Shown here in pieces: positions 16,501-41,886 of a stretch of DNA of 64,000 nucleotides (its first letter is position 1; every line of letters begins with the position of its first letter). Below the pieces are notes generated by a model. The model ran no database searches. It was not told the DNA's origin and saw only the letters and a list, made by a program, of their open reading frames with translations. The stretch spans positions 1 through 64,000 of the forward strand of contig NZ_LGCM01000019.1 of the NCBI RefSeq assembly GCF_001306035.1, read 5' to 3'. The stretch comes from Levilinea saccharolytica (lineage in GTDB: Bacteria; Chloroflexota; Anaerolineae; Anaerolineales; Anaerolineaceae). Made by a program: the position numbers and the translations under genes.

Positions 16501-16512
16501 GAACATAAGTTC
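16501..16512. promoter_or_regulatory. GAAC-N4-GTTC palindrome (LexA-like box), context unclear
   Basis: GAACATAAGTTC inside a longer palindrome ACAGAAC-ATAA-GTTCTGT. It is identical to the box at 35690 but sits between the permease stop codon and its terminator, not at a recognisable promoter, so it may be fortuitous. Confidence 0.3.
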
Positions 16513-35132: not shown

Positions 35133-35477
35133 CTAGAACTTTTGCTTCAGGCGAGCGCTCTTGCCCGTGCGGTCGCGCAGGAAGTACAGGCGCGCGCGGC
35201 GCACTTTGCTGTGACGTTCCACCACCACTTTGTCAATGCGCGGGGAGCGCATCAGGAAAACGCGTTCCACACCGATGCCGTTGCTGGCTACGCGGCGCAC
35301 GGTGAAGGTGGAATTGGCGAGGTTGTCATGCACATACAAAACGGTACCCTTGAATTCCTGGATACGTTCGCGGTTGCCTTCTTTAATCTTGACATGCACG
35401 CTGACGACATCACCGGGGGTCAGTTGGGGGATATTCGGGTTCTCGGGAGCCTCAACGGCTTTTAACAGGTCACTCAT
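35133..35477 (-). CDS. rplS: 50S ribosomal protein L19
   Basis: 114 aa, the expected length. The L19 signature is clear: IPQLTPGDVVSVHVKIKEG, then RIQEFKGTVL and a C-terminal basic VRRARLYFLRDRTGKSARL. It sits at the 30S-50S interface. It stands alone here, flanked by its terminator and a divergent promoter region, not in the common rpsP-rimM-trmD-rplS order. Confidence 0.97.
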   Translation of the reverse strand: MSDLLKAVEAPENPNIPQLTPGDVVSVHVKIKEGNRERIQEFKGTVLYVHDNLANSTFTVRRVASNGIGVERVFLMRSPRIDKVVVERHSKVRRARLYFLRDRTGKSARLKQKF

Positions 35478-35654: not shown

Positions 35655-35701
35655 TTGACAAGCACCATGGCTGTGGGTAGAATGAGATAGAACATAAGTT
35701 C
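35655..35701 (+). promoter_or_regulatory. Promoter with a LexA-like box at the start site (FtsK-like operon)
   Basis: TTGACA (35655-35660), a 17-bp spacer and TAGAAT (35678-35683) form a near-consensus promoter. GAACATAAGTTC (35690-35701) covers the predicted +1 and matches GAAC-N4-GTTC, the LexA operator of Gram-positive bacteria that is also known from Dehalococcoides. The position is ideal for repression, suggesting SOS control. Confidence 0.7.
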
Positions 35702-35731
35702 TATTTGCTCGCTCACCAGGAGGTGAGGACT

Positions 35732-37072
35732 ATGCTCTCAAAATTTCCCGAACGCCGCCCGTTCAAGCTGCCCCCGGAGCGCATGCCAGCGCAGGAGCCG
35801 CAGCGCGTTCGCATTGAAGATGAATTTCTGCCGCCCCAAGAATGGGATGAAGATGAGCTGTCGGGCGATGCCCAGGCGGCTGCCCCGACCGAGGCGCAAG
35901 AGCAGGCTGAATCAGAAGCTGAGGTGGAGATCGAGGCAGAAGAAGAAGCCGATCTCCCCGTGCAGGCAGCTGCACAGCTGCCGCCCCAACGCCCACCCGC
36001 TGTGATGCAGGCGCGCCCCCAGCCGGCCGTGCCTCCCCCACCTACGCCCCGCTGGGCACCCAACGCCCACCGTCCCCAACCCGCCTCCCCCCCGCCGGAG
36101 CCGGTCTTCCCCATTGAGGAGATCAGCCCGGAGGAATGGGCCGCGCTGAAGATTCCCACGCCCCCCGCCCCGGCTGTACCCCAGCCCGCCCCTACGTTTG
36201 AACCCCCCATAGAAGCGGCCGCTGCATTGGAGCACCCCGCGGAAGAATCCCATGCCGAAGAAACCCTTGCGGAAGAAGCCCCGGCGCCAGAGCAGCCCAA
36301 GCCTCAGCCCGCCGCCGCACCGGCGCAGAAACCGGCGGCAGAGACTTCGCTGCGCGATTTGATCCGCGCTTGCAGCAGCCTGCCGGCGCATACCGCCGTG
36401 TTGGGCATGTGCGCAGACGGTCTGCCGGTGCTGTTTGACCTTCTGGACGCGCGCCCCGGGCCTTTCCTGGTGACGGGCGACCCGGGCTGCGGCAAAACCG
36501 CCCTGCTGCACACCCTGCTGCACACCGCCGCGGCCCTCACCAACCCGGCCGAGCTGCGCTTTGTGGTGCTGGCCGCCAAACCGCAGGAATACGCCGCCCT
36601 GGCCTCCGGCGCCGACACCGCCGCCCACTGCGACGGTATTTTTGACAGCCGCCAACCGGCTGCATGGGAGCAGATCCTGCGGGCGGCCGAGGTGGCCGAA
36701 CAGCGCTATGCCGAAGGGCGGGCGGGTACGCCGCTGCTGCTGGTTCTGGACGATCTGCGCTTTATCGGCGAGGTGGACAGCACCGTGCGCTTGAACCTGG
36801 AATGGCTGTTTCAAAACGGCCCCGCAGCGCATGTGTGGCCGCTGGCGGCCCTGCCCACCCAGGCTGCCCTGCAGATGGGCCGCTGGACGCGCCGGTTTGG
36901 CACGCGCCTGATCGGGCACATGCCGGCCGATTCTGCCCGCAGGCTGGCCCTTTTTGATGATCTGACGGCCCAGGATCTGCGGCCGGGGCGTGAATTTGCT
37001 TTGCATCTGGAAGACGGTTGGCTGCGCTTTTTCCTGCCGCTGCTGCCGGAAGCCCACAGGAGGTCTGCATGA
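35732..37072 (+). CDS. FtsK/SpoIIIE-like P-loop ATPase with long acidic-proline N terminus
   Basis: 446 aa. Residues 1-205 are low complexity (Pro, Glu, Ala; repeated EEA and PPP). Residues about 215-440 form one P-loop domain: AVLGMCADGLPVLFDL, Walker A GDPGCGKT (249-256), Walker B LLLVLDD (about 335-341), and RFGTRLIGHMPADSAR, similar to the FtsK sensor segment. The entry strand and Walker A context are typical of the FtsK/HerA superfamily, but the protein is short and has no membrane helices or gamma domain. The start follows AGGAGGTG. Its stop overlaps the next gene by four bases. Confidence 0.7.
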   Translation: MLSKFPERRPFKLPPERMPAQEPQRVRIEDEFLPPQEWDEDELSGDAQAAAPTEAQEQAESEAEVEIEAEEEADLPVQAAAQLPPQRPPAVMQARPQPAVPPPPTPRWAPNAHRPQPASPPPEPVFPIEEISPEEWAALKIPTPPAPAVPQPAPTFEPPIEAAAALEHPAEESHAEETLAEEAPAPEQPKPQPAAAPAQKPAAETSLRDLIRACSSLPAHTAVLGMCADGLPVLFDLLDARPGPFLVTGDPGCGKTALLHTLLHTAAALTNPAELRFVVLAAKPQEYAALASGADTAAHCDGIFDSRQPAAWEQILRAAEVAEQRYAEGRAGTPLLLVLDDLRFIGEVDSTVRLNLEWLFQNGPAAHVWPLAALPTQAALQMGRWTRRFGTRLIGHMPADSARRLALFDDLTAQDLRPGREFALHLEDGWLRFFLPLLPEAHRRSA

Positions 37073-37296
37073 GTTTGGGACTGCTGTACCGAGAACGGCG
37101 GGCCAAAGATGAACTGGCCCAGCGCATTTTGCAGGCGGCGGCGGCCTATCAACGCATGTACGGCCGCCGCCCAGAAGTGTGTTATGTGCATCCGAGCTGC
37201 CAGGAGGGGTTGACCCAACTACCCCAAATGGAAGTGCGCGCGGACGAACAGATTCAGCCGAACCAGTTCTATCTGGGCCTGTTCACCGGCCGCTGA
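37069..37296 (+). CDS. 75-aa partner of the FtsK-like ATPase
   Basis: 75-aa soluble protein; a helical N-terminal half (RRAKDELAQRILQAAAAYQRMYG) is followed by a short beta-rich tail (PEVCYVHPSCQEGL, FYLGLF). Unrecognised. The ATG overlaps the ATPase stop (ATGA) and follows AGGAGG, so it is translationally coupled. A role as a regulator or adaptor of the ATPase is an inference from coupling. Confidence 0.6.
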   Translation: MSLGLLYRERRAKDELAQRILQAAAAYQRMYGRRPEVCYVHPSCQEGLTQLPQMEVRADEQIQPNQFYLGLFTGR

Positions 37297-37302
37297 GCTG
37301 CT

Positions 37303-38223
37303 CTAAGGCACAGCAGGCGGTATCCGCCCGATCATGCTCAACAGGATGCTGAGCGGATTCTGGCTGAACTCCCCGGCGAAATGCACGGCGGCCTCTTCCA
37401 GGCTGACCTCCCCGCTGGTTTCCTCGCGTAGATACCACAGGTGCTCAATCACCCACAGGTACAGGTCGGCTTCGGTGCGTCCGGGGAATTCTTTCAAGAT
37501 ATTCTGGCTGCGGATGACCTCTACCAGGGGCTGATACACCTGTTCGCACCAGCCCACCACGGCCTCTTCCCAGGAAATCTCCCGCTGTTGGTCAATACCC
37601 ATGAAGTAGCGGTGCGCGGAGATGTGCTCCAGCAGTTTCTGGTAGCCCCCCGGCAGGGTGAGCCGCACTTCGCTCGCTGGGCAGCGCTCTTTAAGGCCGG
37701 TCTGGCGCGCAAATTCGGCCTGTTCCACGCGGCGGATGATTTCATCAATGTCCATATCGGGTGTGATCTCGGCGTCCACGTCAATGGCGACCACCTCGGC
37801 GTCAATGAAAGCCTGCCCGCGCTCGCGGGCCACGGAAACGCGGTGGTTGCCGTCGCTGACAAAATACAGCTCGCCCACTTTGTAGGCCTGGATGGGCGGC
37901 AGAGGCACATCCTGCAGATGGGCGGCGTCAATGCTTTCCCAGCGCCCGCGGGTGCGCGTTTGGCGGGGCAAAAAAGCGCGGTCAAAATCACGGTAACGGC
38001 CTACGCTGCCCACAATCTGTTCCATGGGAATTTGCTGCACCCCCAGGGAGTGCTGTCCGGCGAAGGGTAAGTTGCGCCGCACCTCGTCAAAGGGCAGCAG
38101 CTCATTTTTGCTTTGGGTCAGCCAGCTCCATACCCCCCGCCAGAAGCCTTTGCGCAGGGCGGCTTCAAAATCAGCGCGCGCTGCTTGTTGGGTTGCTTTG
38201 GATTCAGAAGAAGGGTCGTTCAT
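37303..38223 (-). CDS. ParB-fold (DUF4032-like) protein
   Basis: 306 aa. The central SDGNHRVSVARERGQ (about 128-142) is the ParB/sulfiredoxin-like nucleotide-binding motif, here in a DUF4032-like context; the C-terminal half is helical (EISWEEAVVGWCEQVYQPLVEVI) and has no helix-turn-helix, so it is not a chromosome-partition ParB. Related proteins are widespread but uncharacterised. First of the long minus run to be read in this direction only from its right-hand neighbour; six bases separate it from the phosphoesterase gene. Confidence 0.7.
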   Translation of the reverse strand: MNDPSSESKATQQAARADFEAALRKGFWRGVWSWLTQSKNELLPFDEVRRNLPFAGQHSLGVQQIPMEQIVGSVGRYRDFDRAFLPRQTRTRGRWESIDAAHLQDVPLPPIQAYKVGELYFVSDGNHRVSVARERGQAFIDAEVVAIDVDAEITPDMDIDEIIRRVEQAEFARQTGLKERCPASEVRLTLPGGYQKLLEHISAHRYFMGIDQQREISWEEAVVGWCEQVYQPLVEVIRSQNILKEFPGRTEADLYLWVIEHLWYLREETSGEVSLEEAAVHFAGEFSQNPLSILLSMIGRIPPAVP

Positions 38224-40597: not shown

Positions 40598-41886
40598 GCG
40601 CCCCCTCCGGTGCTTTCGGGGCGGTAAATGCCCACCACACGCCGCTGCGGGCTGAGCCAGGTTTGGGCAGCGCGCTGCACATCCGCGGGGGTGACGCTTT
40701 CCAGGGCGGGAAGGTAATTGACAAACCAGGCGTAGCGGTCAAACATCTCTGCGTAGCCCAGCCAGAAAGCCTGATTGGTGATGTTCTCGCTGCCGTAGGC
40801 AAACAGGGCGCGCGCTTGTTTAATCGCCCGCCGGATTTCGGTTTCGTCCACAAGCTGATCCTGCAGCCGGGCCACGGCCTCATCCACGCGCGCCAAAACC
40901 GCTTCTGGGCTGGATTCGGGGCGCACCAGGGCGGTGATGTGGTACAGGAAGGGGTCTGCCGTAGCTTGCAGGCTGCCCTGCAGGCTGACGGCCAGCTCCT
41001 GCTCCACCACGGTGCGGTACAGGCGGCTGGTCTTGTTGGAGACCCCGCCGCCCCCAAACATGTTCAGGCTAGAGGGGCCGCTGAGCAGGCTGTCCACCAC
41101 GCTGAGGGTCAAAAAATCGGCCTGGCTGGCGGCGGGCGCGCGGTAGCTGATGCGCAGATAGGTGGTGCGTTCCGGCCCGCTGATTTCCACGCGCTGCTCG
41201 CCCTGCGGCTCTGGCTCTGGGCTCAGGCGCAGTTCCGGCACCTCGGCAGGCGGCAACCCGCCGTAGGCTTCGCCCAGACGCTGGATCATCTCGGCGCTGT
41301 CAAAATCACCCGCCAGGGTGACCAGGGCGTTGTTGGGGGCATAGTAACGGCGGTAATGGGCGTACAGGTCGCCGCGCTGGATGGCGCGCAGATCGTCCGG
41401 GGTGCCGATGACCTCGTTGCGGTAGGGGTGCTGGTGAAAGGCGGCCTCTTGAATGGCCACATCCAGGCGGAACATGGGTTCGTTCAGGCTGCCTTCCAGC
41501 TCCGAAAGGATCACCGTGCGCTCCGATTCCACCTCCTCGGGCGCAAACAGGCTGTTGACCATGCGGTCGGCCTCCAGGCGCAGGGCCAGGTCAATTTTGT
41601 CGGCGGGCAGGGTTTCGTAATAGGCGGTCCAATCCAAGTGGGTGAAGGCGTTCCAGGTGCCACCTTCTCGCGCCACCGCCTGATCCAGCACCCCGGCGGG
41701 GAACTGCGGCGTGCCTTTGAACTGCATGTGCTCGACCCAATGCGAAAGCCCGGTGCGGCCGGCCTGTTCCCAGCGCCCGCCCACCCGGTACCAGACCCAA
41801 TGGCTGATCAGCGGCGCGCTGTGAATTTCTTTTAGAGCTGCCCGCAGACCGTTGGGAAACTGGATCACCTGGATTTCGTCAGGCAT
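40594..41886 (-). CDS. M16 family zinc peptidase, active partner
   Basis: 430 aa. The inverted zinc motif is intact (H49-W-V-E-H53) with a downstream Glu in VESERTVILSELEGS as third ligand. The C-terminal half contains the usual R/Y substrate pocket region (NKTSRLYRTVVEQELAVSLQ). Insulinase/processing-peptidase-like enzyme acting on short peptides; substrate unknown. First of the pair; its stop overlaps the next gene. Confidence 0.88.
   Translation of the reverse strand: MPDEIQVIQFPNGLRAALKEIHSAPLISHWVWYRVGGRWEQAGRTGLSHWVEHMQFKGTPQFPAGVLDQAVAREGGTWNAFTHLDWTAYYETLPADKIDLALRLEADRMVNSLFAPEEVESERTVILSELEGSLNEPMFRLDVAIQEAAFHQHPYRNEVIGTPDDLRAIQRGDLYAHYRRYYAPNNALVTLAGDFDSAEMIQRLGEAYGGLPPAEVPELRLSPEPEPQGEQRVEISGPERTTYLRISYRAPAASQADFLTLSVVDSLLSGPSSLNMFGGGGVSNKTSRLYRTVVEQELAVSLQGSLQATADPFLYHITALVRPESSPEAVLARVDEAVARLQDQLVDETEIRRAIKQARALFAYGSENITNQAFWLGYAEMFDRYAWFVNYLPALESVTPADVQRAAQTWLSPQRRVVGIYRPESTGGGA

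Follow-up and report, generated by a model that had tools for sequence, protein, structure and literature searches.

A putative SOS-controlled operon of Levilinea saccharolytica encoding an FtsK-like ATPase and a member of a small protein family of the Chloroflexota

The window analyzed here is a stretch of 64,000 nucleotides (64 kb) from a contig of Levilinea saccharolytica, whose genome amounts to 4.23 Mb in 65 contigs. It contains a two-gene operon that is preceded by a promoter and a palindrome and is flanked by one divergent and one convergent gene. Gene starts and neighbors were taken from the output of a simple script, and open reading frames (ORFs) were called only roughly. The features of the locus are as follows.

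35655..35683, plus strand: sigma-70-type promoter TTGACA-17-TAGAAT, agreeing with the consensus at 11/12 positions (-35 at 35655-35660, -10 at 35678-35683)
35687..35704, no strand assigned: LexA-type operator ATAGAAC-ATAA-GTTCTAT, a perfect palindrome (7+4+7) over the expected start site
35718..35725, plus strand: ribosome-binding site AGGAGGTG, read directly, ahead of the ATG of the ATPase gene
35732..37072, plus strand: gene for an FtsK-like ATPase of 446 aa, an ORF with its ATG at 35732 (in Pfam, FtsK_SpoIIIE scores 27.2 bits and AAA_16 scores 34.2 bits, each exceeding its cut-off)
35732..36343, plus strand: N-terminal Pro/Ala/Glu-rich stretch of 204 residues, recognized by composition, in the place occupied by the FtsK alpha domain in deeper relatives
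36344..37069, plus strand: FtsK beta (RecA-like) motor domain of 242 residues (model pLDDT 95.5; best matches with Foldseek and VIA, FtsK and EccC)
36476..36499, plus strand: Walker A motif GDPGCGKT, intact in the window ATPase
36734..36757, plus strand: Walker B region LLLVLDDL
37069..37296, plus strand: gene for a 75-aa protein of a Chloroflexota family without a name, overlapping the stop of the ATPase gene by 4 bp (ATGA)
35133..35477, minus strand: rplS (ribosomal protein L19; Pfam E 3.8e-40), the divergent flanking gene, context only
37303..38223, minus strand: DUF4032 gene (Pfam), the convergent flanking gene, context only

A first-pass annotation, made from the letters alone, had claimed a near-consensus promoter with a GAAC-N4-GTTC palindrome on the start site, and both are present; the core of the palindrome, GAACATAAGTTC, occupies positions 35690-35701 and begins 6 nt past the -10 element. 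The promoter of the operon is one of two promoter-like matches in the 6 kb scanned (shuffle mean 1.2), and the promoter and box are arranged in the same way in the sister genome (G001, locus L047). The Pro/Glu-rich N terminus of the ATPase was also described correctly as far as composition goes, residues 1-204 consisting of 23.0% Pro, 19.1% Ala and 16.7% Glu, and is Ala-rich as well. The 75-aa gene that was said to be coupled to the ATPase gene does overlap it, and a convergent DUF4032 homolog lies downstream of the operon in many order-level loci too.

The GAAC-N4-GTTC form of the LexA motif is used in Dehalococcoides, and no open-access paper on this use was found. The same form is known as a LexA motif from B. 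subtilis and M. tuberculosis, according to the accessible part of the source (PMC3323433). In the genome of L. saccharolytica, the LexA DNA-binding domain has one match (E 2.5e-13), and the promoter of this lexA gene reads TTGACACA-GAACGGATGTTC-GTG, after which comes an AT-rich -10 element, TAATATAAT; GAACGGATGTTC is the box. The absence of a LexA for this box would have refuted the first-pass annotation; a LexA is present, and its own promoter carries the same box form. The recA promoter contains a box with one mismatch, GAACAAATGTaC, between TTGACC and TATAAT, and the exact box was found at 29/31 lexA loci, which comprise that of the genome itself and 30 loci of the best matches in relatives. 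Taken alone, the bare 12-mer is weak evidence, because it is not rare and lies mostly in ORFs, so that conservation has to decide. Three copies are present in the window against 0.67 expected (4/100 shuffles reach three), and the genome contains 45, compared with 13 copies of the reversed pattern. According to the rough ORF caller, 33 of the 36 genome sites whose surroundings were read are inside ORFs, for which reason motif counting alone was rejected as proof of a LexA operator, and three are intergenic (lexA, C9:94095 and C1:239449); the three window copies and six others are outside this tally.

Several of the other copies can be described individually. At positions 16501-16512 of the window, an identical GAACATAAGTTC stands within AGAACATAAGTTCT beside a terminator-like hairpin, just past the apparent end of a minus-strand membrane-protein gene that adjoins an ABC-type ATPase gene, and no gene start was seen beside it. 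The third copy in the window, at 41470, is inside an ORF. The intergenic site C9:94095 (L227:1596), GAACATCTGTTC, separates two divergent small genes of 158 and 147 aa as called by the simple ORF caller, and is a possible further LexA target in the genome.

Conservation of the box was evaluated at loci of the small protein in three sets. The order-level set contains 81 loci from 74/101 relatives, the window included, and the nine copies in the division/cell-wall (dcw) cluster were left out of its box count and are shown apart (n = 72). The class-level set consists of 40 loci picked from 97 matching genomes among 249, with one dcw copy (L369) left out of the box count (n = 39). The distant set comprises 40 loci from a search of 400 genomes of the phylum, from which L189 and L190 were dropped as doubtful small-gene matches (n = 38), the FtsK-type match downstream in L190 being left out along with it. 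Within a promoter region of 510 bp at the first gene of the operon, the exact box was found at 36/72 order-level loci (39 matches, where the remaining sequence of these loci predicts 0.51) and at 24/38 distant loci (0.40 matches expected), which amounts to 77 and 59 times the local background, respectively, and each of 15 control palindromes was found at 0 or 1 locus in either set. With up to one mismatch, the counts are 57/72 (controls 4-21) and 30/38 (controls 2-15). Two of the 36 order-level loci without an exact box have less than 10 bp of upstream sequence, and 15/72 have no box even at one mismatch; a box at 605 bp in L061, outside the promoter region, was counted as absent. Among the 24 distant matches, that of L220, GAACTGCGGTTC, may be due to chance, a better box being located further out there. 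At the class level, 31/39 loci have a box, often paired, in the 3.2 kb that precede the small gene (controls 0-5 loci), with 58 matches in 108,660 bp upstream against 14 in 229,319 bp elsewhere. Since the loci are related, these counts are not independent. The exact boxes nevertheless span 19 families by the codes of the tool, seven in the order and 12 outside it, and this promoter conservation, together with the excess over local background, stands against a palindrome that arose by chance at an operon not under LexA; the 45 genomic copies of the 12-mer, mostly within ORFs where read, are what can be said for that reading, which is hardly credible.

A lexA gene is located upstream on the same strand at 17/40 class-level and 2/40 distant loci (19 in total), LexA having been confirmed with Pfam in three. 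No such linkage was found at any of the 81 order-level loci, and it was therefore either lost in the order of the window or gained elsewhere. LexA was not found in three relatives in which the box is present (G006, G023 and G090, drafts that are 87, 64 and 83% complete), and 27/101 relatives have no detectable small gene, most of them with a LexA-domain match; as many relatives are draft metagenome genomes, an absent gene may be an absent contig. On the strength of these comparisons, the assignment of the operon to SOS/LexA control is well supported, with no binding or induction data. At three loci (L361, L379 and L382), the operon is preceded by a tandem of two LexA-like genes, the second of which has paired boxes close by; another LexA, or a regulator derived from LexA, may be encoded there.

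The ATPase had been annotated as an FtsK/HerA-type protein, of which the FtsK part holds in the form of an FtsK/EccC-type enzyme. A profile of 36 homologs matched solved structures of EccC (E 4e-26) and FtsK (E 1.2e-17), and the model of the 242-residue domain matched FtsK motor domains with Z 24.4 (rmsd 2.9, 231 residues aligned; VIA), tied with EccCb1-D2 (Z 24.2), whereas HerA scored Z 19.0 and below. The match of the domain model also disposes of a metabolic AAA family, which the first-pass annotation had named as a possible refutation. The beta motor fold is common to FtsK, SpoIIIE, SftA and the window ATPase, and class-level relatives of the latter also show the FtsK alpha domain. In contrast to FtsK, the window ATPase lacks the gamma, membrane and alpha domains: Pfam gave no FtsK_alpha match at E up to 1, no gamma (DNA-sequence-reading) domain was detected in it or in seven homologs at E up to 0.001, and no N-terminal membrane domain was indicated by a simple hydropathy test, the only one used (maximum over 19 residues, 1.43). 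All of these seven deeper or divergent homologs exceed the Pfam cut-off for FtsK_SpoIIIE, and six have an FtsK_alpha signal (E up to 0.001), which is over the cut-off in three (L195, L188 and L088). EccC/EssC of type VII secretion have the same fold with an equal score, but the window ATPase has a single motor domain and is accompanied by a LexA box and, in the class, by lexA linkage. Degenerate ATPase domains are found in EccC as well.

Defense systems include HerA-type ATPases that have partners, and the operon resembles HerA-NurA and HerA-type defense in joining a P-loop ATPase to a partner gene. A defense or mobile-element module based on a HerA/FtsK-like ATPase, for which a weak PADLOC match to mad8 (E 1.4e-5, P-loop region only) could also be cited, is nonetheless very improbable: the structural match is better to FtsK/EccC than to HerA, the partner has no nuclease match, the chromosomal neighbors are common across the family, lexA linkage occurs in the class, and one central member of the small family had no match among 72,556 plasmid records and 50,697 phage records.

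The genome also contains two distinct FtsK ORFs of larger size, with open frames spanning 833 and 797 aa. On contigs C64 and C4 (L345-L348), each of two FtsK genes occurs twice on its own contig, on opposite strands and with identical scores, and these contigs may be palindromic products of assembly.

An ATPase gene lies upstream of the small gene at 38/72 order-level loci outside the dcw cluster. Its end is located at -62 to +29 bp from the small gene in 35/38 of these, and the other three have a gap of 253-768 bp with another ORF inside. According to the alignment, Walker A is intact in 23/38 order-level ATPases (24/39 when one true FtsK is counted) and lost in 15/38. At the remaining 34/72 loci, no upstream ATPase homolog was found, yet 16/34 have an exact box by the small gene. 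At the class level, the ATPase is present at 26/40 loci, and a pattern search along the protein, which is looser than the order-level alignment, detected Walker A in 30/30 ATPases of the class together with four distant ones. A hydrophobic Pro-rich protein, mostly of 114-164 aa, was identified at 13/40 class-level loci by BLAST with three seed proteins. It possesses long N-terminal hydrophobic stretches, read by eye as two membrane helices, and a Pro-rich tail; 11 members reach a 19-residue hydropathy of 2.0-2.9, and the one member scanned has no Pfam match. At L114 and L124, which belong to two genomes of the same family, the ATPase is replaced by a gene that resembles a phospholipase-D-type nuclease (by eye); the small gene downstream of it is a divergent one, and no box was found at either locus.

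Because the ATPase is often degenerate or absent while the small gene stays, often with its box, the 75-aa protein is the constant part, and, as judged from these genomes, it is this protein and not the ATPase that forms the conserved core of the operon. The opposite view would make the motor the effector, with an SOS-induced soluble or split FtsK clearing DNA from the closing septum or aiding repair, in the manner of the SOS-induced FtsK of E. coli and of SftA at the septum of B. subtilis, and the small protein serving only as a cofactor. The retention of FtsK alpha and beta domains and of the Walker A pattern in deep relatives agrees with this view, as does the hydrophobic Pro-rich protein that several of them add, a possible tether for the motor. 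Furthermore, E. coli ftsK is SOS-induced via the dinH promoter (PMC4080785), and SftA of B. subtilis, which like the window ATPase has no membrane domain, is a soluble septal FtsK-like translocase (PMC5357621), both statements resting on excerpts of the respective papers. A role led by the motor is, however, rather unlikely in view of the order-level members that have lost Walker A, the order-level loci that keep the small gene and often the box without any ATPase, and the absence of a gamma domain from all eight proteins scanned.

The members of the small protein family have ~70-115 aa as a rule and share the conserved elements GMLWFD, YY..KYG, P, C, HP and NHFW.G. A membrane helix is not indicated at any of 161 loci, none exceeding 1.6 in 19-residue hydropathy. 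Searches of Pfam, NCBIfam, PADLOC and PHROGs with the window protein gave no match up to E 1, the last two libraries having been queried with this protein alone, and all 81 order-level small proteins gave only chance-level matches in Pfam and NCBIfam; PDDEXK_10, matched by 5/81 members with a best E of 0.044, was taken as chance. A profile of the family found nothing among solved structures (best E 0.15). The predicted model has the order strand-helix-three strands with a pLDDT of 78.8, and the fold searches gave a best E of 0.75 with Foldseek and, with VIA, an HK97-type capsid/encapsulin at Z 5.2 at best, among tied unrelated matches. The capsid, encapsulin, V-ATPase stalk and chorismate mutase matches score close together, and none is reliable. 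In addition to the relatives and class genomes counted above, homologs were found in 85/400 phylum genomes, and the three sets overlap. A tree of the small proteins (119 of the first 121), which is unrooted and poorly supported and rests on few columns, shows a scattered presence of the ATPase. In five loci of two distant families (L196, L201, L218, L219 and L226; f50 and f59), members of the family carry long low-complexity tails and reach 285-534 aa in total, and an exact box is located up to 2.5 kb upstream in four of these loci. A close member is also present in a record whose title names a complete genome of candidate division WWE3 (L300:5001-5240), with TGA at a conserved Trp codon and no exact box at the locus.

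The gene-neighborhood survey of the 75-aa family that the first-pass annotation had proposed led to the dcw-cluster copies and to the lexA linkage in the class. The dcw copies have mraY directly upstream and murD directly downstream at 10/10 loci (9/81 order-level, 1/40 class-level), and murF, ftsW and murG are also present at the eight whose contigs extend far enough, those of L108 and L110 being cut; Pfam searches on L096 and L097 confirmed Mur ligases, an MraY-type transferase, FtsW and MurG. The exact box was found in the promoter region of 0/9 order-level dcw copies and was not seen up to 3.2 kb upstream of the class-level copy, and a box with one mismatch is present at 2/9 order-level copies. 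Five order-level genomes hold a dcw copy together with another copy of the small gene. The dcw copies belong to few lineages, with at least four label changes on the poorly resolved small-protein tree. Seven of the 40 distant loci, which represent two families, have mraZ-rsmH upstream of the small gene in the opposite orientation; the distance to mraZ is 0.6-3.6 kb, and the arrangement was checked with Pfam on L214. The dcw linkage of this paralog suggests, without proving, a division role. The earlier proposal that the ATPase acts on DNA or the septum remains an inference, of which the septum side gains support from the dcw linkage. Many repair genes belong to SOS regulons, and the small protein could be a factor for repair, recombination or replication that is induced in the SOS response and unrelated to division, since nothing in its own sequence points to division. 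A copy outside SOS control within murF-mraY-murD-ftsW-murG, along with mraZ-rsmH near seven distant loci, would be hard to explain for such a factor, and no nuclease, polymerase or nucleotide-binding family matched above chance; this possibility is accordingly considered improbable.

An SOS checkpoint of division or segregation led by the small protein is proposed for the operon, with confidence evenly balanced between acceptance and doubt, its binding, induction and phenotype being inferred only. Upon DNA damage, RecA would trigger the self-cleavage of LexA, and the operon would be derepressed and transcribed; the LexA-type operator, its conservation and the lexA linkage in the class are observed in the sequences, while LexA binding and induction are inferred. 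As the constant product, the small soluble protein should be the effector, and it may delay septation by acting on the machinery for division or for the septal cell wall. Both the delay and its target are inferences, the observed homologous copy in the dcw cluster indicating the divisome or septal peptidoglycan synthesis as the target by analogy with YneA and FtsW. The FtsK-derived protein, where present, could tie the action of the small protein to septal DNA. It would work as a motor driven by ATP in deep relatives and, where Walker A has been lost, probably as a scaffold; here the kinship with FtsK and the overlapping or close genes are observed, and contact between the two proteins is inferred. 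YneA interacts with FtsW, known inhibitors are often small, and low-confidence models place ChiZ, SosA and SidA at FtsW too, as far as the available portion of the source goes (PMC13396833).

The operon resembles those of SulA, YneA, SosA, ChiZ and SidA in its small product, its LexA-type operator and, in the class, its lexA linkage. Some of these SOS division inhibitors also neighbor lexA. In contrast to SidA, ChiZ, SosA and YneA, described as small membrane proteins in the part of the source that was consulted (PMC13396833), the present protein has no membrane helix, is accompanied by an FtsK-like partner in many lineages, and has an effect on division that is only inferred. Compared with FtsK, in turn, the ATPase family has often lost Walker A and has as its operon partner a small protein family that is absent from all libraries searched. 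In the simplest history, which is likewise inferred, an ancestral module of lexA, an FtsK alpha-beta protein, a Pro-rich protein and the small protein lost the alpha domain, next the ATP site and then the ATPase gene in different lineages of the order of the window; the direction of this history is an inference as well, the tree being neither rooted nor well resolved. A bolder version, which is put forward as possible but tentative, holds that the Chloroflexota have an SOS checkpoint of their own, with the ancestral order lexA, paired LexA boxes, FtsK alpha/beta motor, hydrophobic Pro-rich protein and small protein. It would combine a split damage-inducible FtsK with a small effector that either came from the mraY-murD position of the dcw cluster or was passed on to it. 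In the order of the window, the motor would have decayed to an ATPase-dead adaptor and then been lost, leaving the small protein as a structurally new division inhibitor.

For the Anaerolineae/Chloroflexota, no paper on an SOS regulon or on a division checkpoint under SOS control was found in the open-access literature. Many lineages of the phylum contain the candidate family, whose features include a clear operator, a homolog in the division cluster and an FtsK-derived partner at several stages of decay, and cultured relatives that carry the pair, Thermanaerothrix daxensis and Bellilinea caldifistulae, make it testable. Both are among the carriers in the 80 loci kept from a scan of named genomes, as are metagenome-assembled genomes called Anaerolinea thermophila. 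The gene pair of T. daxensis has an exact box and an ATPase without Walker A, and that of B. caldifistulae has a box with one mismatch and an altered Walker A.
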